This document shows, piece by piece, positions 34,476 through 57,651 of a stretch of 64,000 bases of DNA. Each line of letters starts with the position of its first letter. Position 1 is the first letter of the stretch. Source of the stretch: Kaiparowitsia implicata GSE-PSE-MK54-09C. Its GTDB lineage: Bacteria > Cyanobacteriota > Cyanobacteriia > Elainellales > Elainellaceae. The notes beneath the pieces are model-generated. The model was not told the origin of the DNA, did no database searches, and was given only the letters and a program-made list of their open reading frames with translations. The position numbers and the translations under genes are program-made. The stretch is taken from the NCBI GenBank assembly GCA_019359435.1, contig JAHHHI010000061.1, forward strand, positions 62,001 to 126,000. Reading direction: 5' to 3'.

Positions 34476-35201
34476 CTACCAGGGGCGCTCTTCCAGCTCG
34501 ACCGTCTTGTCCATCGGCATGCCCAGCTTTTCGTAGAAGGCACGACGCATGCGACGGTCCTTGTCCTGAACGCGCCAAGCCCGCTTGGCGACTTCTTCAC
34601 CGTCTTCCTGAGGAATGACAACGATGCCGTCGTCGTCGGCAATTACGCCGTCGCCGGGACGGACGTAAACGCCGCCGCAGGTGATCGGCTTGCCCATGGA
34701 GGACAGTTCGAGCCGGCCTGCCATGTGTCGCATCGAGCGCACTGAGCAGAACACCGGATCCTTCTGCATGATGCACTCGCCCGAGTCACGGCAGGCGCCA
34801 TCGATTACGAAGCCCACCGAACCCTTGACGCGGGCATCGAGCAGGTTGTTGGAGCCGAGCAGGCCGCAACGGGACTGTTTGGTGTCGATCACATGCACCT
34901 CGTCGGGGGCACCGAAGCTGTGGCCAGCGGGCCAGAGCGCGTCCGGGTGGCTGGAGCGGTCGGGATTGCGCTTGTATTGGCGATCGTCGAACTCCTCATA
35001 GCTCATTGCCGGGATGGTGCGGTTGATGATGTTGAACTCGGCGGTGGTGGCGATGCCGGCAAAGAAGATGCCAGGGAACATCGGGCGCAGCCGGGGGTCC
35101 ATCTCATAAGTGTTCATATAGCCCATGGAGTCGAGGGCGTCGGTGACATCTGAGGTACGTACCTTGCGAAGGATCTCGAGGGTACTGGAGCTGATGGCCA
35201 T
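34476..35201 (-). CDS. RraA-like protein, putative HMG/CHA-type aldolase or decarboxylase (copy 1)
   Basis: 241 aa, slightly longer than classical RraA (about 160-230). The signature GSNNLLDARVKGSVGFVIDG runs into ACRDSGEC, with the Arg-Asp pair that binds pyruvate and Mg2+ in 4-hydroxy-4-methyl-2-oxoglutarate aldolases; RPGDGVIADDDGIVVIP is the second conserved block. True RraA (RNase E inhibitor) lacks enzyme activity; retention of Arg-Asp favours a lyase. It sits 57 bp after the sugar ABC ATPase gene and ahead of dld, so it is likely part of the same transcript. One of three paralogues in this window. Confidence 0.8.
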   Translation of the reverse strand: MAISSSTLEILRKVRTSDVTDALDSMGYMNTYEMDPRLRPMFPGIFFAGIATTAEFNIINRTIPAMSYEEFDDRQYKRNPDRSSHPDALWPAGHSFGAPDEVHVIDTKQSRCGLLGSNNLLDARVKGSVGFVIDGACRDSGECIMQKDPVFCSVRSMRHMAGRLELSSMGKPITCGGVYVRPGDGVIADDDGIVVIPQEDGEEVAKRAWRVQDKDRRMRRAFYEKLGMPMDKTVELEERPW

Positions 35202-35258: not shown

Positions 35259-36437
35259 TCAAAGCAGGATCGACAGGCCGGTCTCGCCGTCGAAGAAGTG
35301 CATGCGTCCGGTATCGAGACGCACTGTCACGGTCTGCCCGAGTCGTACGTCGCTTTTGGCCGTGAAGCGGGCGACGCATCGCGACTTTCCCGCTTCCGCC
35401 TTGATCTCGTCGAGGCTGTCGGAGCTGCGGATTTCGGCCGCCTGGGCGTCGATCCCCAGATGCACGATGACGTCGGAGCCGAGCGCCTCCACGAGGCTGA
35501 CCTGAGCGGTGATGCAATCGTCGGGATCGGCCTGCTGCACGGTGGAGGCCTCGACGATATCCTCGGGGCGGATGCCGACGATGATGCGCTTACCGGCGTA
35601 GCGGCTGAGGCCGGCATGCTCGGCGCGGCTCTGCGCCGGCATCTTGAGGAGGTGGCTGCCGAGCCGAACCGCCAGCGTATCCCCCTGCCCTTCCAGCTCC
35701 GCCCAGTAGAGGTTCATGGTCGGCGAGCCGATGAAGGCGGCCACGAAAGTGTTGCGCGGCTTGTTGTAAATGTTGGACGGCGTATCCACCTGCTGCAGCA
35801 CGCCGTCCTTGAGCAGTGCGACGCGGTGGCCCATTGTCAGCGCCTCGACCTGGTCATGGGTGACATAGATGGTGGTCACCCCCAACCGGTGCTGCAGCGA
35901 GGCGATCTCGGCGCGCATCTGCACACGCAGCTTGGCGTCGAGGTTGGACAGCGGCTCGTCCATGAGGAATACGGCCGGCTGGCGCACTATGGCGCGCCCC
36001 ATAGCGACGCGCTGGCGTTGCCCGCCCGACAGCTGTCCAGGGCGGCGCTTGAGGTAGGCGTCCAGTTCGAGGATGCGGGCTGCCTCCTGCACGCGCTTGT
36101 CAATCTCAGCCTTGGGCAGCTTAGCGATCTGCAGCGGGAAGGCGATGTTGTCGTAGACGGTCATGTGCGGATAGAGCGCATAGGACTGGAACACCATGGC
36201 GATGTCGCGGTCCTTGGGATGGGTATCGTTGACGAAATCGTCGCCGATCCACACCGCGCCATCGGATATTTCTTCGAGCCCGGCGATCATGCGCAGCGCG
36301 GTGGACTTGCCGCAGCCCGAGGGTCCGACCAGCACGAGGAATTCACCGTCCTCGACATCGAGGGAGACCCCGTTGACCGCGCGGAGCGATCCTCCGGCAT
36401 AGGTCTTGGTCAGATTCTGAAGAGTTACGCTGGCCAT
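35259..36437 (-). CDS. ABC transporter ATP-binding protein, CUT1 (UgpC/MalK) family
   Basis: 392 aa. Walker A GPSGCGKS, Q-loop VFQSYALYPHMTV, signature LSGGQRQRVAMGRA, Walker B and D-loop FLMDEPLSNLD, H-loop YVTHDQVEA. The C-terminal 150 residues form the MalK-type TOBE/OB regulatory domain (IVGIRPEDI, VHLGIDAQ, FTAKSDVRLGQTVTVRLD). It energises the importer formed by the two permeases and the binding protein encoded upstream. CUT1 systems import oligosaccharides, glycosides or polyols. Confidence 0.92.
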   Translation of the reverse strand: MASVTLQNLTKTYAGGSLRAVNGVSLDVEDGEFLVLVGPSGCGKSTALRMIAGLEEISDGAVWIGDDFVNDTHPKDRDIAMVFQSYALYPHMTVYDNIAFPLQIAKLPKAEIDKRVQEAARILELDAYLKRRPGQLSGGQRQRVAMGRAIVRQPAVFLMDEPLSNLDAKLRVQMRAEIASLQHRLGVTTIYVTHDQVEALTMGHRVALLKDGVLQQVDTPSNIYNKPRNTFVAAFIGSPTMNLYWAELEGQGDTLAVRLGSHLLKMPAQSRAEHAGLSRYAGKRIIVGIRPEDIVEASTVQQADPDDCITAQVSLVEALGSDVIVHLGIDAQAAEIRSSDSLDEIKAEAGKSRCVARFTAKSDVRLGQTVTVRLDTGRMHFFDGETGLSILL

Positions 36438-36453
36438 GGTTTACTCCGACCGA

Positions 36454-37350
36454 TCACTTGAAGCCTTGGGTAGCGATGCCCTTGGTGAGCAGTCGCTGGG
36501 ACGCCAGAAAGAAGCCGAGCACCGGCCCAATGGACACCAGCACCATTGCGAAAAGACCACCGAAGGAAGAGGCGCCGCCGCTGGGGTCCAGGAACAGCCG
36601 CAGGGCGACCGGTACGGTCATGCGGTCGGTATCGGTCAGGTAAATGAGCTGGCTGAAGAAGTCGTTGTAGGTGTTGATAAAGGTAAAGACCGCGGTGGTG
36701 GCCAGTGCCGGCATAGATAGCGGCAGGATGATGCGCCAGTACCGCTGCCAGTAAGACGCGCCGTCGACGACCGCCGCTTGTTCCAGTTCGCTGGGCAGCG
36801 AGCGCATGAACTGCACCATCAGGAAGATGAAGAAGGCATCATGCGCCAGGAATTTGGGCACGATCAGCGGCAGGATGGTGTTCACCCAGCCGATGTTGAG
36901 AAAGAAAATGTATTGTGGGATGAGCTGCACGTGGATCGGCAGCATCATGGTGCCGAGCATGATGGCGAACAGGAACCATTTGCCGCGGAATTCAAGCCGC
37001 GCGAAGGCGTAGGCTGCCATCGAGCAGGCGATCAGGTTGCCCACGATGGCCAGCGCACACAGCACGAACGAGTTGATGTAGAACTGCGTGAAGGTCAGGT
37101 TGCCGTAGAGCTGCCAGCCGCGGATGAAGTTATCCAGCGTCCAGGTAGTGGGTATGAAGCCCATGTCGCCGAAGATTTCGGCTTCCGGCCGGAAGGCGCT
37201 GAACACCATCCAGATCACCGGGTAGAGCATCACACCGAGGATGGCGATGAGCAGCAGGTGCAGGCCGACCCCCCTGAGCAGGCGCCGCGTTTCGCGCCGG
37301 CGGCGCTGCGCTTGCAGCAGCTCCGGATCGTAGGTCTTAGCGGTCGCCAT
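36454..37350 (-). CDS. CUT1 sugar ABC transporter permease, MalG type
   Basis: 298 aa, six predicted helices. The front has the typical MalG loop (YPVIWMVFSAFRPEAEIFG). The EAA loop is LPSELEQAAVVDGASYWQRY, contacting the ATPase. The start overlaps the partner permease's end by 14 bases, so the two are translationally coupled. Confidence 0.92.
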   Translation of the reverse strand: MATAKTYDPELLQAQRRRRETRRLLRGVGLHLLLIAILGVMLYPVIWMVFSAFRPEAEIFGDMGFIPTTWTLDNFIRGWQLYGNLTFTQFYINSFVLCALAIVGNLIACSMAAYAFARLEFRGKWFLFAIMLGTMMLPIHVQLIPQYIFFLNIGWVNTILPLIVPKFLAHDAFFIFLMVQFMRSLPSELEQAAVVDGASYWQRYWRIILPLSMPALATTAVFTFINTYNDFFSQLIYLTDTDRMTVPVALRLFLDPSGGASSFGGLFAMVLVSIGPVLGFFLASQRLLTKGIATQGFK

Positions 37351-38314
37351 AGAACACCCAATAGCGCGAGGACCAGAACATCAGCGCCGTTGCCAGCCCG
37401 ATGGCGATCAGCAGGATCCAGGCCATAGCCGAGGCGTAGCCCATCTGCAGTTGCTGGAAGGCCTGCTGATAGAGATAGAGGGAATAGAGCAGCGTGGCGT
37501 CGACCGGCCCGCCGCGGCCGTTGGAGACCACGAAGGCCTGCGTGAACGACTGGAACGAGTTGATTAGCAGCAGCACGGTATTGAAGAAGATCACCGGGGT
37601 GATCAGCGGCAGGGTAATGCGGCGGAAACGCTGCCAGGCATTGGCGCCGTCGATGGAGGCGGCCTCGTAGTAGGATTCCGGAATCTGGCGCAGCGCGGCG
37701 AGGAAGATCACCATGGAGGCCCCGAAGGTCCACACATTGAGGGTGATCACCGATGGCAGCGCAAAGGTGGGGTTGTTGATCCAGCCGCGCCCGGCAATGC
37801 CGAACCAGCCCAGTATGTCATTGACCACGCCGCGCTCGCCAAACACTTCCTTCCACAAGAGGCCGATGCCGACGCTGGCCCCGATCAGGGACGGGACGTA
37901 AAAGAGCGAGCGGTAGATGGCGAGGCCGCGCAGGCCGCGATTGAGCACGGCAGCGATGGTCAACGAAAACAGCAGCACCAGCGGGACCGAGAAACCGACA
38001 TACTTCAACGTCACCCAGATTGAGGTGATGAAACGCCGGTCGGAGGTGAACAGGCGGACATAGTTGTCGAGACCGATCCAGGTGGGAAAGCCGATGACCG
38101 CGTAGTTGGTGAAGCTGAGATAGAGCGATGCCAGCATCGGCAGTGCGGTTATCAGCACGATACCGGCAAGCCAGGGCAGCAGGAACAGATAGGCCGCGCG
38201 GTTCTCGGCTTTCTTGAAGGCCGATCCGGTCCTGTTGGTCGGAATGACCCGCACCGGCCGGCCCGCCTCGGCCGCCGTCAGCACCGTGTTGTTTGAGGCA
38301 TCGACTGTGCTCAT
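37337..38314 (-). CDS. CUT1 sugar ABC transporter permease, MalF type
   Basis: About 325 aa from the ATG at 38314, favoured because GAGGTG is placed at normal distance; a GTG four codons upstream (38326) is also possible. Helix-rich with YLFLLPWLAGIVLITALPML, and the EAA loop IPESYYEAASIDGANAWQRF. It forms the heterodimeric pore with the MalG-type partner. Confidence 0.92.
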   Translation of the reverse strand: MSTVDASNNTVLTAAEAGRPVRVIPTNRTGSAFKKAENRAAYLFLLPWLAGIVLITALPMLASLYLSFTNYAVIGFPTWIGLDNYVRLFTSDRRFITSIWVTLKYVGFSVPLVLLFSLTIAAVLNRGLRGLAIYRSLFYVPSLIGASVGIGLLWKEVFGERGVVNDILGWFGIAGRGWINNPTFALPSVITLNVWTFGASMVIFLAALRQIPESYYEAASIDGANAWQRFRRITLPLITPVIFFNTVLLLINSFQSFTQAFVVSNGRGGPVDATLLYSLYLYQQAFQQLQMGYASAMAWILLIAIGLATALMFWSSRYWVFYGDR

Positions 38315-38387
38315 TTGAACGCCCACCTCGCGCCATACGAATGTCGACGAGCGGCCACTCTCAGGGAGCTCATCAAGTAGTTGGGGG

Positions 38388-38421: not shown

Positions 38422-39771
38422 TTAGCGCGGTGCAGCCTGATCAAGCTGCTGCTGCAGCTCGGAGATCAGCATGTCGGCACCTTCTTCGACGCTCAGCTGG
38501 CCGAAGGCCACCGCATCGTAGGAGCGGTTGAGCACGTCGGTCATCGCCTGGTAGCCACCGGCCGGCCACAGCACAGGCTTGGCAGTCTCGACGACCTCGT
38601 TGTAGAGCTCGATCAGCCGGACCTGGGTGGGCTGGGTGTCTGGGCTTTCGGCCTGCGCAATGGCTAGTTCGGGAATGGCCACGACGCCATTGTCGGACTG
38701 GTAGATGCCGGCGGCCTCGGGGTCCTGGGTCCAGTAATTGATCCATGCGGCGGTAGCCGGGAGCTGCTCGGCGGTGCAATTGGCGCCGATGGCGATGCCG
38801 TTGGAGCCCAGGTCCATGCCCACCGTGCCGTCTTCACCCACCGGATAGGGGCGGGTGTTGATGGTGGCACCGGGATTGACCGTGTCGGTCACGGTCTGCA
38901 CCGAGCCGAGCTGGTTCGGCGGCCGGTTGGTGGTGTATCCGCGACCATTGGCGAGGTTGGATTCCTCGACCAGCGCACTGTTCTCGCTGATCATGCCTTC
39001 GGGCGACTCGGTGACGCCCTCGTTGCGCAGGGCTTCCCAGTAGTTGAACCACTTGATGGCCACATCGCGGGAGAAGGCAACCTTGGAGCCGTCGAAAACC
39101 TTCTCACCATGCGACTGCACCCATGGCACGAAGGCATCCGGCTCACGGCCCATATTGTGGGTCGCGACGGCGCCTTCCGGCAGCGTGGGCTGGATGGCCC
39201 GCAGGTGGTCGGCATATTCGGTCCAAGTGTAGGGCCATTCGATCGGCTCGACCCCGGCGGCAACGGCGTTTTCGAGCATCTGCTCGTTATACATCAGCGC
39301 GAAATAGAAAACGCCATGCGGGATCATGTAGAGATTGCCGTCGGCACCGCGGGCCGCGTTCATCACCGATTCCGGAATGCCGGTGATATCCAGCGTTCCA
39401 TTGGCCACCAGATCATCGAGCGGCATCAGGATGTCCGGACGGGCATAGGTGGCCATCCAGCGCGACTGCATAGTGATGGCACAGGGCTGGTTGTTGCCGG
39501 TGGACTGGATCGTCAGGCGTTCCCAGTAGGGCGCGAAGTCGGCGTTTTCTCGCACGACCGAAACACCCGGGTTCTTCTCCTCGAACAGCTGGATGATCTT
39601 ATCGGTCTTTTCATTGCGGACTTGGCCGCCCCACCAGCTGAAGCGAATTTCGCCCTGAAGGCCTTCGCTCTGCGCATTCACCCCAACCGGTACCGCCGCC
39701 AGCGTCAGCGCCAGGATCGACGCGGCCAGTAGCGGACGCACACCTCTTTTCAGAACTCTCGTGCTTTGCAT
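38422..39771 (-). CDS. CUT1 sugar ABC transporter substrate-binding protein
   Basis: 449 aa from the ATG at 39771, preceded by GGGAGGAAACC. Residues 1-34 are a Sec signal peptide (LKRGVRPLLAASILALTLAA, cleavage after VNAQ). The mature protein is SBP_bac_1-like (GEIRFSWWGGQVRNEKTDKI, PDILMPLDDLVANG, YMIPHGVFYFALMYNEQM). It is the first gene of the importer operon. The upstream region contains two TTGTATGCAA operator copies. Confidence 0.9.
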   Translation of the reverse strand: MQSTRVLKRGVRPLLAASILALTLAAVPVGVNAQSEGLQGEIRFSWWGGQVRNEKTDKIIQLFEEKNPGVSVVRENADFAPYWERLTIQSTGNNQPCAITMQSRWMATYARPDILMPLDDLVANGTLDITGIPESVMNAARGADGNLYMIPHGVFYFALMYNEQMLENAVAAGVEPIEWPYTWTEYADHLRAIQPTLPEGAVATHNMGREPDAFVPWVQSHGEKVFDGSKVAFSRDVAIKWFNYWEALRNEGVTESPEGMISENSALVEESNLANGRGYTTNRPPNQLGSVQTVTDTVNPGATINTRPYPVGEDGTVGMDLGSNGIAIGANCTAEQLPATAAWINYWTQDPEAAGIYQSDNGVVAIPELAIAQAESPDTQPTQVRLIELYNEVVETAKPVLWPAGGYQAMTDVLNRSYDAVAFGQLSVEEGADMLISELQQQLDQAAPR

Positions 39772-40422: not shown

Positions 40423-41319
40423 CTAGGGCATCTGATAGAGGCGGGAGACCGAAGCCCCGTCCTCCATCTCGTTACCCGCCTCGGCGTAACGGTGATACTG
40501 GCGGATGGCGACATCGAGCAGGGGCAGGTCCAGCCCCAGGTCTTCGACGAAATGGGCGACCGACTTGAGATCCTTGTCCACCTGCCGCACATAGCTGCGC
40601 GGCGGATCGAAATCCTCGGCGCTCATCTGGGTATAGATGCGCTGCAGGATGGCGCTGTCGGCCAGGCCACCCTTGAGACAGACTGGCAGGAGGTCGGGAT
40701 CGATGCCCGCGGCCTTGCACGTGGCCAGCAGTTCGGCCATCAGGATATAGTTGGCGCCGACGATGGCCTGGTTGAGGATCTTGGTCTTTTGCCCGGTGCC
40801 CAGTTCACCCATACGGGTGACGTTCTGGCCGATTTCGCGCAGGATCGGCTCGACGGCCGAATAGATATCAGTCTCGCCGCCAGCCATAACGGTGAGCTGG
40901 CCCTGCCGCGCCGGCTGCGGACCGCCTGACATCGGTGCGTCGATCCAGTCGGCGCTAAGCTCGTCCTTGAGGCGCTCGGCAAGCTTCAGTGTGGCCTCGG
41001 GCGAGGTCGTCGACAGGTCGATCAGCACCTTGGCGCCCCTTCCGGCCTTGACGAAACCGGCGTCGCCGAAGCAGACGCTTTCGATCGCCGCATCGCCAAG
41101 GACGCAGACCAGCACGACCTCCGCGGACTTCCAGACATCGGTAGGCGAATCTGCCCAGGCAGCGCCGCTGTGCTTGACCTTGTCGAAGCGTTCGGGCTCG
41201 AGGTTCCACACCACGAGTTCGTAGCCCTGCTCTCGCAGGCGTTCGGCAATGGGGGCGCCCATGATGCCGAGCCCGACCATACCGAGGCGGGTGTCTTTAC
41301 CGAACGTGCCGTTTGCCAT
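40423..41319 (-). CDS. NAD(P)-dependent beta-hydroxyacid dehydrogenase (3-hydroxyisobutyrate dehydrogenase-like)
   Basis: 298 aa. The cofactor motif is GMVGLGIMGAPIA, the substrate motif DAPMSGGPQPAR, and the catalytic lysine lies in GTGQKTKILNQAI. The family oxidises 3-hydroxy acids such as 3-hydroxyisobutyrate, tartronate semialdehyde or sugar acids. Placed after a lactonase-like hydrolase and an RraA-like gene, it may oxidise an aldonic or branched acid. It lies 3 bp after the hydrolase stop. Confidence 0.87.
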   Translation of the reverse strand: MANGTFGKDTRLGMVGLGIMGAPIAERLREQGYELVVWNLEPERFDKVKHSGAAWADSPTDVWKSAEVVLVCVLGDAAIESVCFGDAGFVKAGRGAKVLIDLSTTSPEATLKLAERLKDELSADWIDAPMSGGPQPARQGQLTVMAGGETDIYSAVEPILREIGQNVTRMGELGTGQKTKILNQAIVGANYILMAELLATCKAAGIDPDLLPVCLKGGLADSAILQRIYTQMSAEDFDPPRSYVRQVDKDLKSVAHFVEDLGLDLPLLDVAIRQYHRYAEAGNEMEDGASVSRLYQMP

Positions 41320-41322: not shown

Positions 41323-42228
41323 TTAGGCCTTTCCAGTCAGATCGATGCGATAAAGGCGAGCCGCATTGGCCCAGAACAGCGCATCCCTATCGGCGTCGGG
41401 GAAGTCCGCCACGATCGCCGCGAAGCCCGCAAAGATCGTCGAGAAACTGGCGACCAGACTGTCCACGGGGAAGTTGGAGGCGAACATGCAGCGGTCCACC
41501 CTGAAGATGTCGATGGTGTCGGTGACGATGGGGCCGTTCGCCGCCACGGTCCAGGGCTCCCCCTTCTGGCCCAGGCCGGAAATCTTGACGGCCACATTGG
41601 GGCATTCGGCAACCCGGCGCATGGCGTTGCGCCATCCGGCCAGACCTTCGGCGCTGCGATCGGACGGCAGGCCGGTATGATTGATGATGATCTGCGTGTC
41701 GGGGAATGCGGCGGCGAGGTCGGCGGCTTCCGGCAGGTGCCACCATGGCGTCTGCAGGTCGAAACTCAATCCGTTTGGCGCCAGCATAGCAAAGCCCCGG
41801 CGGAAGGCGGCATCACCCATGGAGCCAGGCGCCCCGAGGGTGACGTCTTCCGGACGGGCAACGGCCTTGGGCTTGTGACGTATGCCGCGCACGAACGGCG
41901 TCTGGCGATGGGCTTCCAGCACAGATGCAGCGTCATCGCGATCGAGCCAGGCCTGGGCCACCATGACGCTGGGCAAACCGGCCTGGCGACGCACCTTCTC
42001 CACCCAGGCCACTTCACCCAGCGGGTCTGCCGGGTTCCATTCGGTCTCGATGAAGACGCTGCCTATGATCTCGAAATCGCCAGCGTCCGCACGATAGTCG
42101 GCCGGCAGGTAGTTCTTCTTGATGGCGCTGTAGTCGCCATAGCGAAAAGCCACTGGCCGGTCCGCAAGCCAGGGCAGGTAGTTGGCCTCGATGTCCCAGA
42201 AATGATGATGGGCGTCGATGATCCGCAC
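41323..42228 (-). CDS. Amidohydrolase-2 family protein, lactonase-like
   Basis: 301 aa TIM-barrel metal-dependent hydrolase read from GTG at 42228 behind GGGGAG. The first-strand metal motif is IIDAHHHFWD; other conserved points are VFIETEW, IIINHTGLP and the C-terminal FASNFPVD. It resembles COG3618 members such as L-fuconolactonase and rhamnonolactonase, which open 1,4-lactones produced by sugar dehydrogenases. This supports a sugar-acid route in the operon 43059 to 40111. Confidence 0.82.
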   Translation of the reverse strand: MRIIDAHHHFWDIEANYLPWLADRPVAFRYGDYSAIKKNYLPADYRADAGDFEIIGSVFIETEWNPADPLGEVAWVEKVRRQAGLPSVMVAQAWLDRDDAASVLEAHRQTPFVRGIRHKPKAVARPEDVTLGAPGSMGDAAFRRGFAMLAPNGLSFDLQTPWWHLPEAADLAAAFPDTQIIINHTGLPSDRSAEGLAGWRNAMRRVAECPNVAVKISGLGQKGEPWTVAANGPIVTDTIDIFRVDRCMFASNFPVDSLVASFSTIFAGFAAIVADFPDADRDALFWANAARLYRIDLTGKA

Positions 42229-42282: not shown

Positions 42283-43059
42283 CTAGCCTTCGAGGCCGGC
42301 GTAGTAGCGGTCGATGGCGTCGGTATCGACGGATTCGTCATGCGGCCGGTTGAGAGCATCATAGCGGCCGCGGCGGGCGCGCATGTCGGCGATGAGCACC
42401 GCCTTAGCGTGCAACGCGGCCTTCTTGGCCACCTCGATCGGCACCACGATGACGCCGTCGTCGTCACAGCCGACGATGTCGCCCGGACGTACTTGGGCGC
42501 CGCCGATGCCGATAATGGTGTTAAGTTCGACCACTTCGATACGACCCGGGATAATGGTGCGGCCGCGCTCGCGGCACACCATCGGGGTCTTCTGCATGGT
42601 CACTTCGCCGGTGTCGCGGCAATGGCCGTTGGTGACGATACCGACCGCGCCGCTCGCCTGCAGGCCCAGCACGTTTTCCGACCCGAAGAAGCCGACCTCG
42701 CCGGTGCTGCCGACATCGGTCACCACCACGCTTCCGGGCTTGACCAGATCATTGAGCCCGCGGCCGTTGTGGCCATAGCGATTGAACCAGATACCGTGGG
42801 CGCCCACGATCTCCTCGGTGGTCTCGAGCGGCCACATCGGCTTATTGGCCGGGACGCAGCGCTGAGTCACCGCTGGCCCCCAGAACTTCATGCCGAGCCA
42901 CAAGGGCCGAATTTCCTGGGAGACCAGGCCAATGTTGAAATACCCCAAGCCATCGAGCGCGTCGGCGACGTCAACGACCCGCAGCGGCTCGAAATACTTG
43001 CGGATATGATACGGATCCACTGCGTTCCCGTCAGCATCCTTCGGTTCGTAGCTCGGCAT
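42283..43059 (-). CDS. RraA-like protein, putative aldolase or decarboxylase (copy 2)
   Basis: 258 aa. The block VGFFGSENVLGLQASGAVGI, then VTNGHCRDTGEVTM, keeps the Arg-Asp pair of HMG/CHA aldolases, and RPGDIVGCDDDGVIVVPIEV is the second motif. The tryptophan-containing loop around residue 90 (VGAHGIWFNRYGHNGRGL) differs from copy 1. It leads the operon with lactonase-, dehydrogenase- and YciI-like genes. The product of cleavage would be pyruvate or oxaloacetate if it acts as an aldolase. Confidence 0.8.
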   Translation of the reverse strand: MPSYEPKDADGNAVDPYHIRKYFEPLRVVDVADALDGLGYFNIGLVSQEIRPLWLGMKFWGPAVTQRCVPANKPMWPLETTEEIVGAHGIWFNRYGHNGRGLNDLVKPGSVVVTDVGSTGEVGFFGSENVLGLQASGAVGIVTNGHCRDTGEVTMQKTPMVCRERGRTIIPGRIEVVELNTIIGIGGAQVRPGDIVGCDDDGVIVVPIEVAKKAALHAKAVLIADMRARRGRYDALNRPHDESVDTDAIDRYYAGLEG

Positions 43060-43217: not shown

Positions 43218-43922
43218 TCAGCCCTTGCGGTCTGCCCGCGCCTGCAGGAATGGCAGGCTGTTGAGGAAATGTTGCCGCGTAAGCTGAGCCAGCAACGCGC
43301 CATCCCGAGAGGCGAGAGCTGTGAACATTTTGGTGTGTTCGATCAGGGCCCCTGTCCAGCGCCCGGTGTCCAAGTTGGCCAGAGCGCGGGCGCGTTCGAC
43401 ACGGGGGATCAGCGATTGCCACACCGAAAGCAGAACGGGATTGGCGGCGATCTCTACAGTTCGGCGATGGATCTGCTGATTGATCCGCATATAGGGCGCC
43501 CGCTCTTGGCGACCGTGAAAGTCGATCATCTCGGCGAGAAGCCGTCCGATTTCGCCTACTTCGGCCTCGGTAATACGCTGGCAAGCCAGCTCTGCTGCCA
43601 GTCCCTCGATCGAGCCGAAGACCAAGAACAGATCCTCGAGATCGGGCGCATGAAGCTCGGAAACCACCACACTGCGGTTGGGCAACAGGTCTACAAGGCG
43701 TTCTGCAGCAAGCGTGCGGAAGGCTTCACGTACCGGCGTACGCGATACGCCTAGCTGGTCGCACAGTTGCACTTCGCGCAAACGAGCGCCGGGTGGGAGC
43801 TCCCCCGACAGGATCATGCTTCTCAGCCGGCTCGCGGCCTCTGTATGCAATTGGCCCTTCTTACGGCTGGCAAGAGCCCCCGCTTCCTTAGTCAAATCCT
43901 CAAATTCCGGACCATCTTCCAT
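43218..43922 (-). CDS. GntR-family regulator with FCD effector domain
   Basis: 234 aa from the ATG at 43922; the open frame extends to 44069 but those codons overlap the operators. The N-terminal HTH is TEAASRLRSMILSGELPPGA, then DQLGVSRTPVREAFRTLAAE. The helical FCD domain follows, with its metal-site type residues (DLEDLFLVFGSIEGLAAELA, MRINQQIHRRTVEIAANP). It probably binds the TTGTATGCAA sites flanking its own gene and upstream of the two minus-strand operons and the plus-strand CoA-transferase operon. Confidence 0.88.
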   Translation of the reverse strand: MEDGPEFEDLTKEAGALASRKKGQLHTEAASRLRSMILSGELPPGARLREVQLCDQLGVSRTPVREAFRTLAAERLVDLLPNRSVVVSELHAPDLEDLFLVFGSIEGLAAELACQRITEAEVGEIGRLLAEMIDFHGRQERAPYMRINQQIHRRTVEIAANPVLLSVWQSLIPRVERARALANLDTGRWTGALIEHTKMFTALASRDGALLAQLTRQHFLNSLPFLQARADRKG

Positions 43923-43926
43923 GCTT

Positions 43927-43940
43927 GCTCGTATGCAGGA
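43927..43940. promoter_or_regulatory. Degenerate GntR operator directly before gntR
   Basis: GCTCGTATGCAGGA keeps GTATGCA of the motif and starts 4 bases ahead of the gntR start codon; suggests autoregulation. Confidence 0.4.
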
Positions 43941-43995
43941 ATAACAAAAAAAGCAAGACCGAGCATTTACGCCCTTGATTTTGAGGTAATGCCAG

Positions 43996-44009
43996 TCTTG
44001 TATGCAAGA
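43996..44009. promoter_or_regulatory. GntR operator in the gntR / CoA-transferase divergent region
   Basis: TCTTG-TATG-CAAGA, a perfect 5-bp-arm palindrome 59 bp upstream of the CoA-transferase ATG and 73 bp from the gntR start. Confidence 0.7.
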
Positions 44010-44068
44010 ATAGCAAGCTAGGCGAGGTGGCAGGTGTCCCACCCAACTTCGCGGCCAGAGGAGGAACA

Positions 44069-45292
44069 ATGTCCACAGATCAAACAGCCTCGAGTGGCAG
44101 CACTATTGCAGGATCGCCCCCGCTTGCCGGACTGCGGGTCCTGGACCTTAGCCAGGTGATGGCCGGCCCGTTCTGCTGTATGTTGCTCGGGGACATGGGC
44201 GCCGATGTCATCAAGGTCGAGCCACCTGGCGTGGGCGATCAGACCCGCAAGTCGATGGGCTTCCGGATGAAGGGGGAAGATAGTCCGGGCTTCCTCGCGC
44301 TCAACCGCAACAAACGCAGCATCGTGCTCGATCTTAAAAGTCCGCAGGGCCGGCAGACGCTGCACCAGCTTGTCAAGACAGCCGACATCCTGGTCGAAAA
44401 CAGCCGTCCGGGCGTGACCAAACGGCTCGGCTCGGACTATGAGACCCTGTCGCGCATCAACCCCCGGCTCATCTATGCCAGTATCTCAGGCTTCGGGCAG
44501 ACGGGACCCTGGTCGCAGCGCCCCGGTTTCGACCTCATCGCCCAGGCGATGGGCGGGATCATCAGCGCTACCGGCATTCCGGGTGCCGAGCCGGTCAAGT
44601 CGGGCATTCCTGTCGGTGACCTTGGCGCCGGCATGTTCGCCTGCTACGGCATCCTGTCCGCCGTGATCGGCCGGCAGACCACCGGTCGTGGACAATATAT
44701 CGACACGTCCCTTCTCGATGCTGCCTTGGCGCTCTCGGTCTGGGAAAGCACCGAATACTGGGCCACGGGCAAATCACCGGGTCCGCTGGGCACCGCCAAC
44801 CGGATGAGTGCCCCCTATCAGGCCTTTGCCGGCTCCACCGGCATGTTCGTGGTCGGCGCCGCCAACCAGAAGCTCTGGCTGATCTTCTGTGACACCATCG
44901 GACGGCCAGAACTCAAGGACGACCCGCGCTACGCCAACAATATCGACCGTGTGCAGCGCCGCGGCGAGCTTGCGGCCGAACTGCAGCCCACCTTTCATAG
45001 CCGCCCGGCCGAGGAGTGGGTCGAGTTGTTCCTGGCAGCCGGCGTCCCGGCCGGTCCGATCAACGATTATAGTGTCGCCCTCGACAACGAGCATGTGCGT
45101 CACCGCAAGGCTGTGATCGACATCGACCACCCGGTCGAAGGCAGCTTCAAGGCGCTCGGCTTTCCCGCCAAGCTGTCGAGCACTCCGGCCAGCGTGCGGC
45201 GGCACCCGCCTCTGCTGGGCGAGCATACCGGTGAGATCATGGCCGAACTCGCGTTGCTCGACGGATCGAACACGGGCACCGTCCCCGCATGA
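44069..45292 (+). CDS. Family III CoA-transferase (CaiB/BaiF), single domain
   Basis: 407 aa from the ATG at 44069 behind GAGGAGGAACA; earlier in-frame codons overlap the operator region. Conserved parts are LRVLDLSQVMAGPFC, GADVIKVEPPG, the region with the catalytic aspartate (GIPVGDLGAGMFACYG) and TTGRGQYIDTSLLD. It forms the CoA thioester of a carboxylic acid by exchange with another acyl-CoA. It overlaps the enoyl-CoA hydratase gene by 4 bases, so the two act in sequence. Not closely similar to the two-domain enzyme at 27-29 kb. Confidence 0.9.
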   Translation: MSTDQTASSGSTIAGSPPLAGLRVLDLSQVMAGPFCCMLLGDMGADVIKVEPPGVGDQTRKSMGFRMKGEDSPGFLALNRNKRSIVLDLKSPQGRQTLHQLVKTADILVENSRPGVTKRLGSDYETLSRINPRLIYASISGFGQTGPWSQRPGFDLIAQAMGGIISATGIPGAEPVKSGIPVGDLGAGMFACYGILSAVIGRQTTGRGQYIDTSLLDAALALSVWESTEYWATGKSPGPLGTANRMSAPYQAFAGSTGMFVVGAANQKLWLIFCDTIGRPELKDDPRYANNIDRVQRRGELAAELQPTFHSRPAEEWVELFLAAGVPAGPINDYSVALDNEHVRHRKAVIDIDHPVEGSFKALGFPAKLSSTPASVRRHPPLLGEHTGEIMAELALLDGSNTGTVPA

Positions 45293-46077
45293 CGACGCCA
45301 ACCAGTGACGGGCAAGTCCAGCTGGAACGTGATGGCGCGGTGGCGCACATCACCTTCGACCGGCCGTCGGCCCACAATGCCTTCACGTGGACCATGTATG
45401 AGCAGCTCGATGCCATCCTTGCCCAGCTCAGTTCGGACCCGTCGCTGCGGGCCGTGACGCTGCGCGGCGCGGGCGGCAAGGCCTTCGTCGCCGGCTCCGA
45501 CATATCCCAGTTCAAGACCTTTCAGGGCGGCGCGGACGGCATTTCCTACGAAGCGAAGATGAACCGTTACTTCGAGCGGCTGCTGGCCGTGCCGGTGCCG
45601 ACGGTCGCCATCATTGACGGCTGGGCCGTGGGCGGCGGCCTCAACATCGCCGCCTGCTGCGATATTCGCATCGCCAGCCGCCGCGCCAAGTTCGGCAGCC
45701 CTATCGCGCGCACCATCGGCAACTGCGTTTCGATGCAGACCTATGCCCGCGTGCTGGGCGGATTCGGAGAGGCGCGGACTAAACGCATGCTGCTGCTGGC
45801 CGAGTTCATCGAGGCCGAGGAAGCCATGACGGCCGGATTTCTGGCGCGCCTGGCCGAACCCGAGACGATCGATCAGGTGGCGGACGAGGTGGTCGCGCGT
45901 CTGCTCGAAAACGCCCCGATTACGCTGCGGGTCAGCAAGGCAGCACTCGGCCGCATCATGGCGCGCGATCTCGATCCGGCCGACGATCTCATCGGCCTGA
46001 CCTATGGCAGCGAGGATTTCCGCCGCGGGGTCGACGCCTTCGTCAACAAGACCAAGCCGGAATGGCTGGGCCGCTGA
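45289..46077 (+). CDS. Enoyl-CoA hydratase/isomerase family protein
   Basis: 262 aa crotonase fold. The first oxyanion-hole segment is KAFVAGSDISQFKTF; the second is GWAVGGGLNIAACCDIRIAS. The usual catalytic glutamate positions read RTIGNCVSMQTY, where Glu is not obvious, so the reaction may be isomerisation, hydrolysis or cleavage rather than hydration. Translationally coupled to the CoA-transferase (ATGA overlap) and 19 bp ahead of the glycosidase gene. Confidence 0.85.
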   Translation: MTTPTSDGQVQLERDGAVAHITFDRPSAHNAFTWTMYEQLDAILAQLSSDPSLRAVTLRGAGGKAFVAGSDISQFKTFQGGADGISYEAKMNRYFERLLAVPVPTVAIIDGWAVGGGLNIAACCDIRIASRRAKFGSPIARTIGNCVSMQTYARVLGGFGEARTKRMLLLAEFIEAEEAMTAGFLARLAEPETIDQVADEVVARLLENAPITLRVSKAALGRIMARDLDPADDLIGLTYGSEDFRRGVDAFVNKTKPEWLGR

Positions 46078-46096
46078 GCCCAATGGGAGGACCATC

Positions 46097-47854
46097 GTGA
46101 CCAATTCGCAAGGCTCTGTGCGCGTCTGGAGCAAGCTCGACCTCACCTTCACCGCAGCGGCTAGTTTCGACAATGCCTATGCCGACGCGCTGGTCTGGGT
46201 CGATCTGGAAGGTCCAGGCTTTTCCCGACGCGTCTACGGATTCTGGAACGGTGACAGTGAATTCGTGGTGCGGATACTGGCGACGGCGCCCGGCGAGTGG
46301 CGCTGGACCAGCGGCAGCACGCCCGAGGATACCGGCCTGTCAGGCCGGTCCGGTCGCTTCATGGCAGAGGCCTGGAGCGCCGCCGAACTCGGGGCCAATC
46401 CTAACCGCCGTGGCATGATTGGTGCAACGCCGGATGGTCGTGGCTTACAATATGCCGATGGCAGGCCCTATTTCCTTCTGGGTGACACCTGGTGGTCCCT
46501 GCCCAGCTTCCGCTTTCCGCTCGGCGACGGCCCGGGGTCGACCGGGCCGCTCGGACCGGATGCCACGCTCAACGACTATGTCGCGGTGCGAAAGAGCCAG
46601 GGCTATAACTGCGTCGGCCTCATCGCGGCACAGCCGGCCTGGGCTAATGACGGGCATCCCAACAGCCTGCAGATGCCGGACGGTACCTGGGTGCGGGCAG
46701 CCTGGAAGCAGCCCGGCACCGACTCAGGCAAGGATATGCACAATGAAGGGGGGCGCCCGTTTCAATTCCCGGGCAAAGTGCCTGGATTTGAAGACGTCTT
46801 CCCCGATATGGACCGTATCAACCCTGACTACTTCAAGGTGCTCGATCGCAAGATCGACTATCTCAACGAGCAGGGCATCGTGCCCTTTATCGAGATTTCG
46901 CGGCGCGATGCGGGCCAGTGCTGGCAGAGATATCATGACTGGCCGGAATCTTATGCGCGCTATATGCAGTATATGGTGGCCCGCTATGGCGCCAACATCA
47001 CCCTGCTCAGCCCCATCCACTACGACTATTTCGAGCAGACCATTCCAGCTGAGGATTACAACGTCCCGATCAACCTGGCCATCGAGCGGTATGGCAAGCC
47101 GCCTTTCGGCACCATGCTCACCGCCAATCCCAACCCGTCGACGCTGGTCAATTTCGGCCCGAACAGCTGGGTCGACCTGCACCAGTCCGGCAATGTGCGC
47201 GAGCATTATACCTACTGGTACCTGACGGAAATTTTCCACGCCGAGCGCAAGCCCGCCATCAATGGCGAACCCTATTATGCCGGATTGCATCAGCTCGGAA
47301 CGCCCTATCCGCTGCGGGTCCCACCGGACAGCGAGGATGACCAGATTTATGTCCGCTCCGGGCTCTACGGCAGCTTCCTGTCAGGAGGCCTGGCCGGGTT
47401 CATCTACGGTGCCGAGGGCATCTGGCAGGCCGATGTGGAGCCGGAATCACTCCATAAGATGTGGGACAGTTTTGGCTGGGATTCGGGCAGGCAGGTCCAG
47501 CATGTGAAGACCTTTGCCACGGTGCTGGGCCAGCGCTACCTCGAGCTGGTGCCCGATGCCGAGCTCGTGGTGCCCAACAAGACCGGGCCGGGCTTTTCCT
47601 ACAAGGGCTGGAGCTATTGCGCCCGCACCGAGGACCGTTCCTGGTTCATGCTGTATTTCGAAGCCGACGCGCCGCTCGAAGCCAGCCTGCGCGGCGTGGC
47701 GGCCGGTGCCCGCTACCGCCCGCGCTACTTTGATCCCCGCATGGGCGTCTGGGGCGAGCCAGGCGAGATCGTGACCGTGGCGCGCAGCTCGGTGCTGCGC
47801 CTGCCGCCCCGACCCGATAGCCAGGATTGGGGCATGATGCTCGAGCGCGTCTGA
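46097..47854 (+). CDS. DUF5060/DUF4038 glycoside hydrolase-like protein, cytoplasmic
   Basis: 585 aa from the GTG at 46097 behind GGGAGG; upstream in-frame codons lie within the hydratase gene. Residues about 5-85 are a DUF5060 beta domain (VWVDLEGPGFSRRVYGFWNG, APGEWRWTSGS). Residues about 110-450 are a DUF4038 TIM barrel (YFLLGDTWWSLPS, YLNEQGIVPFIEIS), related to GH140 apiosidases. Glu391 in INGEPYY is the likely catalytic acid; the usual W-x-L-G-N/G-E segment is replaced by LLSPIHYDYFEQ, with an Asp as candidate partner. A C-terminal beta domain ends at 585. No signal peptide, so it must act on an imported glycoside, probably brought in by the CUT1 transporter under the same GntR motif. 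Confidence 0.8.
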   Translation: MTNSQGSVRVWSKLDLTFTAAASFDNAYADALVWVDLEGPGFSRRVYGFWNGDSEFVVRILATAPGEWRWTSGSTPEDTGLSGRSGRFMAEAWSAAELGANPNRRGMIGATPDGRGLQYADGRPYFLLGDTWWSLPSFRFPLGDGPGSTGPLGPDATLNDYVAVRKSQGYNCVGLIAAQPAWANDGHPNSLQMPDGTWVRAAWKQPGTDSGKDMHNEGGRPFQFPGKVPGFEDVFPDMDRINPDYFKVLDRKIDYLNEQGIVPFIEISRRDAGQCWQRYHDWPESYARYMQYMVARYGANITLLSPIHYDYFEQTIPAEDYNVPINLAIERYGKPPFGTMLTANPNPSTLVNFGPNSWVDLHQSGNVREHYTYWYLTEIFHAERKPAINGEPYYAGLHQLGTPYPLRVPPDSEDDQIYVRSGLYGSFLSGGLAGFIYGAEGIWQADVEPESLHKMWDSFGWDSGRQVQHVKTFATVLGQRYLELVPDAELVVPNKTGPGFSYKGWSYCARTEDRSWFMLYFEADAPLEASLRGVAAGARYRPRYFDPRMGVWGEPGEIVTVARSSVLRLPPRPDSQDWGMMLERV

Positions 47855-47974: not shown

Positions 47975-48751
47975 CTACTTCTTGCCGAGACGCTTCATGA
48001 AGTCGTCCCGATTCTTCTTGTAAGGATGCGGCGGCATGTCGGGGAACATCGACTGCGTCGACTCGTCGGGCGCGATGCCGAGCGCTTCGAACAGCATGCT
48101 GCGGTCGTAGCGGTCGTTCTCGGCTTCCTGCTTGGCGTAGTGGAGCACGTCGTCGATCACATCCTGCGGCACGACGATCGCGCCGTCGCCATCGGCCACC
48201 ACCAGGTCGCCCGGACGCGCCGTTGCGCCGCCGATTTCAACGATGGAGTTGGGCTCGCCGAACTCGACGCGGCCCTGATACATCGGCTGGACCACCCAGC
48301 GGTGCCAGCATGGCATGGCCTTCTGGTAAAGCTGCTCGTCGGTGTCGCGGGCCCCGCCATTGGTCAGCACGCCCTTGACGCCCCGCGCCGCCCAGACCAT
48401 CGAATCCATCGAGCCGATGGCCGGGGTCTTCTGCCCCATCGTGTCGATGACGAGGAAGTCGCCCTCCCCGACCTGCTCGCGGAAATCACCCATGTCCCAG
48501 AGCTGGCGGTACCAGTATTCATAGGCCCACTTGGTGTAGTCCTCGGGCGACAGCTCGGGCACACGCGTCTGCGTGGGGATATGGCGGTAGGTCTGGGCAA
48601 AGCCGGCCGCCTTGGTGCGATAGAGCGGGCGGATCTCCGGATCGACTGTGCCGACATAATGCAGCCCCACCCAGTCCATGCCATCGCGGATATCGGTCAC
48701 CCTGAGCTTGGCCACCGTCTCGAGTATCTGCTTGCGTTTGTTCGTGTCCAT
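47975..48751 (-). CDS. RraA-like protein, putative aldolase or decarboxylase (copy 3)
   Basis: 258 aa with a strong ribosome site (GGGAGG). The core motif region is GSMDSMVWAARGVKGVLTNG then GARDTDEQ, again keeping Arg-Asp; the second motif is RPGDLVVADGDGAIVVPQ. It carries a distinctive tyrosine/tryptophan-rich insert near residue 75 (KWAYEYWYRQLWDMGDF) and a longer C-terminal tail. Paired with the RpiB-like gene 18 bp upstream and ended by a strong terminator. Divergence from copies 1 and 2 suggests a different substrate rather than recent duplication. Confidence 0.8.
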   Translation of the reverse strand: MDTNKRKQILETVAKLRVTDIRDGMDWVGLHYVGTVDPEIRPLYRTKAAGFAQTYRHIPTQTRVPELSPEDYTKWAYEYWYRQLWDMGDFREQVGEGDFLVIDTMGQKTPAIGSMDSMVWAARGVKGVLTNGGARDTDEQLYQKAMPCWHRWVVQPMYQGRVEFGEPNSIVEIGGATARPGDLVVADGDGAIVVPQDVIDDVLHYAKQEAENDRYDRSMLFEALGIAPDESTQSMFPDMPPHPYKKNRDDFMKRLGKK

Positions 48752-48769: not shown

Positions 48770-49276
48770 TTAGCTGTTCTGAGATGTGCGCGCGCGATCC
48801 ATTTCCGCCAGCTTTTCGACGCGCCGGCGGAACTGTGGTTCGGTGCTGAACTGGGCGGCCAGGAAGGCGCGCGTGACGTCCGCCGCGATCTGGGGGCCGA
48901 CGATCCAGGCGCCGATGCACAGCACGTTGACATCGTCATGCTCGACGCATTGGCGGGCCACATAGGTATCGTGGGCCACGGCGGCGCGAATGCCGGCAAT
49001 CTTGTTGGCGGCAATGCAGGCCCCTGCCCCGGTGCCGCACACCAGCACCACCCGCTCGACCTTCCCGGTCAGGATCAGGTCGATCGCCGCCCGGGTTACG
49101 TCGGGAAAATCCACCGGCTCCTCTGAGGTGGCGCCCAGGGCGATGACCTCGTCGCAATGCTGGGCCAGCAGGTCCCGGACAAATCCCTTCATGGGAAAGC
49201 CGGCATGGTCGCTGGCAAGGCCGATGGCCTTGCGGCGCGGAATCTCGAGCCCTTTTGCGGCAAGCGTTTCGGCCAT
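48770..49276 (-). CDS. RpiB/LacA/LacB family sugar-phosphate isomerase
   Basis: 168 aa, normal length. Conserved parts are IGLASDHAGFPMKGFVRDLL, VDFPDVTRAAIDLI, the catalytic-cysteine motif VCGTGAGACIAANKIAGIRA and HDDVNVLCIGAWIV. Members isomerise ribose 5-phosphate, allose 6-phosphate, galactose 6-phosphate or, in other operons, tetrose phosphates such as erythrulose 4-phosphate. CGTGAG replaces the common CGTGIG. Start follows GGAGG. Divergent from a FadR-type GntR gene with a palindrome between. Confidence 0.87.
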   Translation of the reverse strand: MAETLAAKGLEIPRRKAIGLASDHAGFPMKGFVRDLLAQHCDEVIALGATSEEPVDFPDVTRAAIDLILTGKVERVVLVCGTGAGACIAANKIAGIRAAVAHDTYVARQCVEHDDVNVLCIGAWIVGPQIAADVTRAFLAAQFSTEPQFRRRVEKLAEMDRARTSQNS

Positions 49277-49321: not shown

Positions 49322-49413
49322 TTTGACAAGAGCGTCTCGGCGTCTTCGTGATCGCCGCCTTGACAGCGTCGCGGCAGGCGGGCCACTTCGAGGGGCGTAT
49401 TTGTGAGGCAGAC

Positions 49414-50166
49414 ATGGATTCAGGGCTGACACGCGACGGCGATCCCGAGGCGAAAGGCTATGACAAGGTCTTCGCCTTCGTGCGCGAGCAGCTGCTCGCC
49501 GGCCAGATAAAGGCGGGCGACCGGCTGCTGCCGGAGCGGGAACTGGCCACCCGGCTCGGGGTCAGCCGCCCAGTTATTCGCGAAGTCCTGCGGGCGCTGG
49601 CCGCCATCGGCGTCATCGAGATCCGCCACGGCTATGGCAGCGTGGTCCGCCGGCCCGACTTTGCCCAGCTGGGCGACCTTTTCACCATGATGTTCGCCCA
49701 GCAGGCCGAAGTGGTCGAGGATGTCATGGAGGCGCGCATCGCCATCGAGCGGCAGGCCATTCGCCTCGCCTGCTCGCGGGCGACCTCGGGTGATCTGGCG
49801 ACCTTGCAGCAGGCGCTGCACCGCGTCGAGGAAACCGTCGACGATCCCCTGGCCGGCGGCGAGGCGGACTTCGCCTTCCACGCCGCCCTGATCGCAACGG
49901 CGCATTCACCCACGCTGGCCAGCCTGCATGCCGCCATCGCGGTGCTGCTCAAGCGCTCGCATTTCGAGCGGCGGGAGCGGATAACCAGCCTGCCAGGCAT
50001 CGAAACCTATCTGGTCGAACACCACCGCGACCTCCTGGCCGCAGTGGTGGCGCGCGATGCCGATGCGGCAGACCGGCTGCTGGTGCAGCATTTCCAGATC
50101 GGCTCGGAATATCAGCGGCGCGCCGCGGCAGAGGGCCAGCGCCCCCCGCAGACGCCTACCAGCTGA
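49414..50166 (+). CDS. GntR-family regulator, FadR type with FCD domain
   Basis: 250 aa from the ATG at 49414 (GTGAGG upstream); the frame is open from 49348. HTH: VFAFVREQLLAGQIKAGDRL, LPERELATRLGVSRPVIREVL. Arg-rich wing IEIRHGYGSVV, then FCD helices (EDVMEARIAIERQAIRLACS, EADFAFHAALIATAHSPTL, VEHHRDLLAAVVARD with metal-type histidines). Most likely regulates the divergent RpiB-like/RraA-like operon through the 49309-49321 site. Its 3' end overlaps the convergent aldehyde dehydrogenase gene by 11 bases. Confidence 0.88.
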   Translation: MDSGLTRDGDPEAKGYDKVFAFVREQLLAGQIKAGDRLLPERELATRLGVSRPVIREVLRALAAIGVIEIRHGYGSVVRRPDFAQLGDLFTMMFAQQAEVVEDVMEARIAIERQAIRLACSRATSGDLATLQQALHRVEETVDDPLAGGEADFAFHAALIATAHSPTLASLHAAIAVLLKRSHFERRERITSLPGIETYLVEHHRDLLAAVVARDADAADRLLVQHFQIGSEYQRRAAAEGQRPPQTPTS

Positions 50167-51634: not shown

Positions 51635-51646
51635 CTTGGTAGGCTC

Positions 51647-52888: not shown

Positions 52889-52892
52889 GTCG

Positions 52893-53903: not shown

Positions 53904-53909
53904 GATCAA

Positions 53910-56366: not shown

Positions 56367-56377
56367 TTCGGGCGGAT

Positions 56378-57535: not shown

Positions 57536-57651
57536 AATCACAAAACAAATTTGAAATCGACTGGCGCCGGCGGTACGACGGAGCGGCTCAAACCCCTCCC
57601 CCTGCTGCTTACGCATTGCTTACGCGGGGATTTTGCCAAGGATACCCCCGG

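Follow-up and report, generated by a model that had tools for sequence, protein, structure and literature searches.

The 64,000-nucleotide stretch analyzed here (hereafter the window; part of contig JAHHHI010000061.1 in assembly GCA_019359435.1, deposited as Kaiparowitsia implicata) carries at positions 44069–47854 three genes in head-to-tail arrangement, which encode a class III coenzyme A (CoA) transferase, a crotonase-fold protein and a glycosidase-like protein with DUF5060 and Apiosidase-like domains. According to our analysis, they are part of a well-supported, conserved set of genes, at the center of which is an enzyme whose catalytic site is altered. We read the whole locus as a catabolic cluster in which a front end for the import and cleavage of a glycoside is joined to a CoA-dependent back end; we put the probability of this reading at about 0.5.

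Eight loci were found in which the glycosidase is 74–86% identical to that of the window. In all of them the genes of the CoA-transferase and the crotonase precede the glycosidase gene, and the same gene order is kept for the permeases, the binding protein, the beta-hydroxyacid dehydrogenase, the amidohydrolase, RraA2, GntR1, RraA3 and RpiB; RraA1 (92–97% identity) adjoins the gene of the UgpC-type ATPase in each. The linkage of the glycosidase with CoA genes, which a sequence-only reading of the stretch had described, thus holds in nine of nine loci at an identity of at least 74%, the window included. The block of aldehyde dehydrogenase (ALDH), iron alcohol dehydrogenase (ADH) and Ldh2 genes at 50156–53909 lies outside the cluster core, because its presence varies among the close loci: it is complete in three of the eight (L026, L028, and L054) and fragmentary in L029, none was seen past GntR2 in L027, L053, and L055, and the contig of L030 ends before its position. 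The genes of the cluster and the residues discussed below are as follows.

34476..35201, minus strand: RraA1, RraA/aldolase-like protein, adjoining the transporter ATPase; the most conserved of the proteins compared
35259..36437, minus strand: UgpC-type ABC ATPase, a conserved neighbor in related loci
36454..37350, minus strand: sugar ABC permease PermG, conserved in related loci
37337..38326, minus strand: sugar ABC permease PermF, conserved in related loci
38422..39771, minus strand: secreted sugar-binding protein with a hydrophobic N-terminus; nearest solved structure YesO (E = 2.5e-29)
40423..41319, minus strand: beta-hydroxyacid dehydrogenase, HIBADH/GarR-like (PF03446 and PF14833; NCBIfam cut-offs not reached)
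41323..42228, minus strand: amidohydrolase, L-fuconolactonase-like (PF04909; nearest solved structures 6uvz/4dlf; NCBIfam cut-off not reached)
42283..43059, minus strand: RraA2, RraA/aldolase-like protein (PF03737)
43218..44069, minus strand: GntR1, divergent FCD-type GntR regulator, from the family scan
44069..45292, plus strand: class III CoA-transferase (PF02515; nearest solved structure succinate-hydroxymethylglutarate CoA-transferase; Asp of PVGD kept)
45289..46077, plus strand: crotonase-fold protein of the PRK06144 subfamily (PF00378), without the two hydratase glutamates
46097..47854, plus strand: protein of 585 aa with DUF5060 and an Apiosidase-like catalytic domain, GTG start, from profile matches and the comparison of start sites
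47018..47026, plus strand: codons of His308-Tyr309-Asp310, the altered acid/base site (His308 and Asp310 invariant in 13/13 rows)
47267..47269, plus strand: codon of Glu391 (NGEP), the nucleophile position, invariant
47975..48751, minus strand: RraA3, RraA/aldolase-like protein, from the family scan; in 8/8 close loci
48770..49276, minus strand: RpiB/LacAB-type sugar-phosphate isomerase, from the family scan; in 8/8 close loci
49411..50166, plus strand: GntR2, FCD-type GntR regulator; in 7/8 close loci, the eighth ending at the contig end

In the alignment of GntR1 with eight close relatives, the match begins between residues 11 and 21 in seven of them and at residue 5 in one; the true start of this regulator probably lies downstream of the TTG used here.

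The assembly holding the window (G000) is cyanobacterial, because PsaA and PsaB were found in it (on contig C84), as in the eight relatives searched alongside (9/9 genomes). The contig of the window (C63), however, is Devosiaceae DNA, a contaminant or a co-assembled companion, and not cyanobacterial, as follows from gene matches and composition. In a scan of genome contigs with peptide patterns, its closest relatives were Devosia and Pelagibacterium, which share a block in the gene order of the window at 61–94% protein identity, and its tetranucleotide usage is Devosia-like. Among nine sampled stretches of the assembly, two from C63 and one from C62 correlate with the window at 0.90–0.94 in tetranucleotide usage, and the other six only at 0.50–0.60. 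The searches among the relatives of the assembly covered cyanobacteria; since C63 is Devosiaceae DNA, they addressed the wrong phylum and are uninformative about Devosia. Contig C62 also appears Devosia-like by composition, C63 by both composition and gene matches.

Within Devosiaceae (the family of Devosia marina, G631), the glycosidase was revealed in 10 of 136 genomes, at 11 places. A draw of 397 genomes from the order gave five matches at 1e-20, all already among those of the family; a draw of 339 genomes from the phylum, with the stricter limit of 1e-60, returned nothing but the probe genome. One metagenome-assembled genome (MAG) of Bacteroidales encodes a relative at 38% identity; there were no relatives at 1e-60 in 246 other genomes of its order. 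Viral contigs, scanned with query A2, contained no relative.

The composition of the trio at 44069–47854, as given in the sequence-only reading, was confirmed by profile matches. The glycosidase reached 56.1 bits for DUF5060 (PF16586; E = 4.5e-15, curated cut-off 27.2) and 106.6 bits for the Apiosidase-like domain (PF13204; E = 2.6e-30, curated cut-off 26.5). Its start is most likely the GTG at 46097, 19 nt past the crotonase stop and downstream of GGGAGG, and not the ATG at 46004 that was assigned mechanically; a GGAGG-type site and the same start position are present in 7/7 relatives printed (of eight close ones). Co-translation of the trio, which had also been suggested, is consistent with this spacing and with the ATGA overlap of the CoA-transferase and crotonase reading frames (45289–45292), and is deduced from overlap and spacing only. 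By a crude hydropathy test, the N-terminus of the glycosidase is not hydrophobic (maximum over 12 residues 0.86, versus 2.43 for the binding protein of the cluster), and a hydrophobic N-terminus is absent from 12/12 glycosidase rows of the Devosiaceae type. This supports the earlier view of a cytoplasmic enzyme without a signal peptide.

The altered acid/base segment LLSPIHYDYFEQ and the retained glutamate of NGEP, both noted from the letters of the window, were found in the glycosidase. The consensus "W-x-L-G-E" that this segment was said to replace proved imprecise: the compared rows have AGEW, GAEW, or NEW (DUF5060 type) or GGD (similar to glycoside hydrolase family 140, GH140) at this place. 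His308 and Asp310 are invariant in 13/13 rows of the clade, down to 40% identity, whereas the acid/base residue is Asp in apiosidase-like rows and Glu in the other rows of the DUF5060 type. In an excerpt of PMC4032388, the position of Asp187 of the PF13204 protein BT_1012 is reported to hold Asp in 82% of the members of PF13204, Glu in 17.3% and Asn in 0.7%, and Glu284 is given as the second catalytic residue. The equivalent of Glu284 is Glu391, which is invariant in 19/19 aligned rows, so that the glutamate expected of GH140 is in place. At the position of Asp187, the window enzyme offers neither Asp nor Glu in either alignment register, the register being unsure. MAFFT L-INS-i sets HYD opposite EWD/EWN, and in hhalign against the DUF5060-type rows His308 stands opposite the acid/base Glu. 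We prefer His308 as the acid/base position because His308 and Asp310 are conserved and Glu313 and Gln314 are not: in the default MAFFT alignment, residue 313 is Gly in L054 and Lys in L058, and residue 314 is Lys or Gly in L056–L058 and Glu in L031. His308, together with Asp310, probably replaces the usual carboxylic acid/base.

A second feature of the clade is the pair Arg269-Arg270 at the end of beta-3, which is invariant in the His rows. In the profile alignment, Arg269 is placed opposite a Trp of 3kzs (BT_1012), Trp149 by our own count, and Trp149 is among the pocket residues named in the available part of PMC4032388. The contig scan used exact peptide patterns, including IHYDYFEQ, and favors sequences with that segment; 6 of the 13 His rows (L053–L058) came from a whole-protein search. 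In a tree of 19 rows, the His rows form one clade (100/100) apart from the GH140-like rows, the branches being long and L010 and L031 having raised warnings. The window enzyme therefore does not group with GH140-like sequences, and the comparison with GH140 and other known clades that had been recommended yielded a separate clade, in which no characterized member was found.

The CoA-transferase is a clear class III member (PF02515, E = 2.8e-134, 448.3 bits) with the Asp of PVGD, which we take to be the catalytic Asp of this class. Its nearest solved structure is the succinate-hydroxymethylglutarate CoA-transferase (E = 5.5e-87), and it remained far from the NCBIfam equivalogs for succinate-glutarate CoA-transferase (306.3 bits, cut-off 750) and succinyl-CoA:mesaconate CoA-transferase (295.6 bits, cut-off 700). 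The crotonase-fold protein matched PF00378 (E = 3.5e-41) and passed the PRK06144 model NF004796 (340.5 bits, cut-off 272). In rat enoyl-CoA hydratase, the catalytic residues are Glu144 and Glu164. In the window protein, Asn and Ile occupy the positions of the two Glu of the hydratase 5z7r, and over 18 aligned crotonase rows the first Glu is absent from 17 and the second from all 18; the exception, L092, is a crotonase of another kind, encoded next to a related CoA-transferase. Plain hydration seems unlikely, because both catalytic glutamates of enoyl-CoA hydratases are absent; as judged from these residues, isomerase, hydrolase, decarboxylase and retro-Claisen chemistry are all open candidates.

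The CoA part can stand alone. A tblastn search of 72,556 plasmids with the crotonase gave seven records at 1e-60. Roseinatronobacter sp. S2 has a group of dehydrogenase (50% identity), amidohydrolase (62%), GntR (61% to GntR1), CoA-transferase (71%), crotonase (51%), a TRAP transporter, a further GntR and RpiB (58%), and in Microvirga ossetica dehydrogenase (56%), amidohydrolase (58%), RraA2 (67%), another sugar ABC transporter, CoA-transferase (63%) and crotonase (53%) are grouped. In Microvirga lotononidis, matches to the amidohydrolase, CoA-transferase and crotonase lie on one strand within ~8 kb; the CoA-transferase/crotonase pair also occurs, among other neighbors, in Sphingobium and on a Comamonadaceae plasmid. 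In the two Caballeronia records, the gene next to the crotonase encodes a tartrate dehydrogenase, and no CoA-transferase is adjacent. There was no match to the glycosidase in the five of these seven plasmid loci that were compared (L085–L089; 17 kb read in Roseinatronobacter and Microvirga ossetica), and tblastn of the glycosidase against all plasmids gave two partial matches only (31.5 and 24.2%), in other records. Because the CoA part stands without the glycosidase elsewhere, the transporter and the glycosidase most plausibly form a front end that was added to, and would feed, a free-standing acid pathway. Such an arrangement is compatible with release of the back end's substrate by the glycosidase.

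Relatives of the amidohydrolase occur in 31 Rhizobium plasmid records. In one from Rhizobium etli (L097), the relative (45%) lies beside a transketolase pair and TRAP and ABC transporters, a lead to a sugar-lactone substrate. The transketolase-like neighbors suggested apiose as a candidate, but for the adjacent binding protein a search of solved structures at E = 1e-40 gave no match.

Three diverged copies of the glycosidase (53–56%), one in G742 and two in G647, retain the transporter, a GntR gene (38–39%) and the glycosidase together. The amidohydrolase accompanies two of the three (45–49%; that of G647 in two pieces), and in the stretches read no match to the crotonase was found near any of them. 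The flanks of two copies carry RraA1 (75–78%), a dehydrogenase (42–43%), an ALDH and, within ~10 kb, another CoA-transferase (34–37%) and a CitE-type lyase with a LysR gene beside it (from the family scan in G742, by reading only in G647). In G742, the glycosidase is followed by a 3-oxo-tetronate kinase and a decarboxylase, both above the NCBIfam cut-offs; near the third copy (L058) there is a GH4 gene. Loss of linkage with the CoA genes had been named as a test of the proposed pairing, and its outcome was mixed: the CoA-transferase and crotonase of the window are not adjacent in 3/3 diverged copies, but another CoA-transferase and a CitE-type lyase are near two of the three. In L057, L058, and L061 of G647, matches to the amidohydrolase, binding protein, permease and ALDH come in two or three pieces, indicating decay or sequencing errors.

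We infer the order of the steps, all substrates and the catalytic role of His308/Asp310 in the following scheme from gene content and conservation. The ABC transporter would import a small glycoside or oligosaccharide; the nearest solved relative of its binding protein is YesO, for which paper listings assign the use of plant-cell-wall pectin, a weak hint at an acidic oligosaccharide. The cytoplasmic DUF5060/Apiosidase-like enzyme would cleave the import; Glu391 would act as the nucleophile, and His308, probably in a pair with Asp310, as the acid/base. The sugar acid, lactone or hydroxy acid set free may then be opened or oxidized by the lactonase-like amidohydrolase (L-fuconolactonase was its sole NCBIfam match, at 80.7 bits against a cut-off of 400) and the beta-hydroxyacid dehydrogenase, and an RraA-type enzyme may cleave or decarboxylate an intermediate. 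The class III CoA-transferase would load a carboxylic, possibly dicarboxylic, intermediate on CoA, and the crotonase, presumably not a normal hydratase, would process the thioester. In the literature search, which left most subscription journals outside, two papers named DUF5060 or DUF4038, and none mentioned an enoyl-CoA hydratase, a glycoside hydrolase and a CoA transferase together with Devosia.

Which part of the glycoside supplies the acid can be argued in two ways. The sequence-only reading had assumed that an acidic aglycone is activated with CoA, and the cytoplasmic glycosidase, its linkage with CoA genes and the separable back end fit this; the glycone, once oxidized to the acid, is just as good a candidate, because both the amidohydrolase and the beta-hydroxyacid dehydrogenase accompany the glycosidase as well as the CoA genes. 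We regard as doubtful the version in which the aglycone passes directly to the transferase and the crotonase and the sugar enters central metabolism. Without the glycosidase, the CoA pair is found beside organic-acid transporters (TRAP in Roseinatronobacter, a TctC-type binding protein on the Comamonadaceae plasmid), and its substrate can therefore be a free imported acid; yet the amidohydrolase and dehydrogenase accompany the CoA genes also there, which is compatible with a sugar-acid route too. Sugar acids or sugar phosphates are likewise suggested by the RpiB gene of the cluster and by OtnK/OtnC next to one of the diverged copies. It is unlikely, in our view, that the enzyme is a phosphorylase, in which phosphate attacks the glycosyl-enzyme to give a sugar 1-phosphate and His308 avoids a charge clash between carboxylate and phosphate. 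The cytoplasmic site suggested by crude hydropathy, the His at the acid/base site, the invariant Arg269-Arg270 with Arg269 opposite the Trp of BT_1012, and RpiB in the cluster agree with such a mechanism, and there is a precedent by title: Macdonald et al. (2015) reportedly describe GH3 enzymes as phosphorylases, which would explain their His. That title is cited in PMC11574756, PMC6572805, and PMC4772129, but the claim for GH3 is disputed in the excerpt of PMC6572805. Moreover, a His/Asp dyad, according to the accessible part of PMC11574756, was found by simulation for GH117, a plain hydrolase, and is proposed for GH3 NagZ and GH156; the Bacteroidales relative also looks secreted. A further proposal, in which a His-Asp phosphorylase (or dyad hydrolase) supplies an undescribed route of lactonase, RraA-type lyase and CoA thioester chemistry with an uncommon, possibly branched sugar acid, seems to us quite improbable.

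That the protein is no longer a glycosidase, having become a binding protein or adopted other chemistry, is very unlikely. It has lost the Asp/Glu present in >99% of PF13204 members (PMC4032388, in part), which would agree with such a change, but many residues, among them Glu391, do not vary in rows down to 40% identity, the Bacteroidales row included, and decay would not leave His308 and Asp310 unchanged. The glycosidase and the CoA genes may also belong to separate pathways that share an operon by descent in one family. The linked set was seen in Devosiaceae only, and the crotonase is missing beside the three diverged copies; however, gene order is kept in 8/8 close loci and two of the three diverged copies have another CoA-transferase and a lyase nearby, so this explanation is improbable as well.

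Several observations weigh against the joined front and back ends or the histidine-based site. The low frequency in Devosiaceae means that the linkage may partly reflect common descent and not repeated selection. The Bacteroidales relative has the same His and, by the crude hydropathy test, a hydrophobic N-terminus as in secreted proteins; the His clade is therefore not tied to a cytoplasmic CoA pathway. Around L058, 32 kb gave no matches to the CoA genes of the window, and its binding-protein gene is in pieces and looks broken. For the active site, the phmmer alignment of IHYDY with NEWDY of 4n0r is weak (12.6 bits), and default MAFFT and hhalign against GH140-like rows leave the stretch gapped, with Gln314 opposite the catalytic Glu/Asp. 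Structure prediction for the glycosidase from seven sequences was unusable (mean predicted local distance difference test score, pLDDT, 49.5), its low confidence being probably due to too few sequences.

Some more specific substrates were considered and rejected. An apiose route, prompted by the domain name, found no apionate model among the NCBIfam hits of the dehydrogenase (17) or the amidohydrolase (1), a sugar dehydrogenase for apiose not having been searched for; the kinase beside one diverged copy scores as 3-oxo-tetronate kinase and reaches only 148 of 700 bits for OiaK of the apionate route. A quinone-type D-lactate dehydrogenase gene at 32724–34430, beside RraA1 (899 bits, cut-off 391), was matched in four of six genomes searched, the copy in G635 having a TAG inside the match. 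The idea of muramic acid or a lactyl ether that it raised was dropped: of the five close genomes searched, one has no match to the gene and two (one of them a fragmented MAG) have it away from the contig of the glycosidase. In five of six further loci (L079–L083), RraA1 is not followed by it, and in the sixth, L084, the contig ends after 379 bases. Aceric acid and other branched sugars are speculation, with no evidence.

Elsewhere in the window, a fused double CoA-transferase III protein (796 aa) lies beside a MaoC-like gene at 26397–29603 (names from translations), followed by a mandelate-racemase-like gene and a dipeptide-type ABC transporter, by reading a second CoA-based catabolic set; in L049 and L050, from two Devosia genomes, the ~13–16 kb past the cluster contained no match to it. 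DNA-ligase-like frames at 9097–10116 and 9936–11024 (9097–11024 in all) overlap in two frames as after a frameshift, and recombinase-like pieces in several frames at 55959–58942, followed by an integrase-like gene, may mark where a mobile island borders the catabolic region; both were assigned by reading.

If the proposed reading is true, the DUF5060/DUF4038 glycosidases gain a branch with a histidine-based acid/base, and one conserved cluster joins glycoside uptake to CoA-thioester breakdown. It would also provide a function for PRK06144 crotonases without the glutamates, for RraA-like proteins of 240–260 aa and for fuconolactonase-like amidohydrolases. Since the back end also occurs by itself in unrelated genera, the pathway can be tested independently.

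Like the GH140 apiosidases and their relatives (BT_1012, 3kzs and 5msy; 8t9w, named Apiosidase; 4qfu), the glycosidase has a PF13204 catalytic domain, a Glu at NGEP/DGEP and a pocket Trp and Tyr (GDTxW, EPxY). Unlike them, it has a leading DUF5060 domain, no signal peptide, His308/Asp310 for Asp187, and Arg269 aligned with a Trp of the pocket; its identity to four GH140-like rows (L012–L015) is 22–24%. Both domains align in the same order in 4n0r and the cyanobacterial rows L019, L020, and L022, which are of the DUF5060 type by alignment, themselves not scanned for DUF5060; they keep the acid/base Glu (AGEW, GAEW, NEW), unlike the window enzyme, and the three cyanobacterial rows are 24–26% identical to it. 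The relative from Streptomyces sp. NBC_01450 (L010, 28% identity) resembles the window enzyme in its non-hydrophobic N-terminus and nearby ABC transporter genes and differs by an Asp near the site; its neighbors were read from translations, with no family scan, as GH43, GH42, GH3, and GH78, and 17 kb of its surroundings gave no matches to the CoA genes of the window. In the dyad enzymes of GH117, GH3 NagZ, and GH156, the carboxylic acid is replaced by an Asp-supported His, as we propose for the window enzyme from its sequence, but these are other families, with different folds. The CoA-transferase shares PF02515 and the PVGD Asp with the class III SUGCT/mesaconate/formyl-CoA group, and its best matches are dicarboxylate transferases, whereas its score far below the SUGCT cut-off places it outside that equivalog. 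The PRK06144 subfamily (NF004796) is named for enoyl-CoA hydratase, whereas the window crotonase and 16 of its 17 aligned relatives have neither catalytic glutamate.

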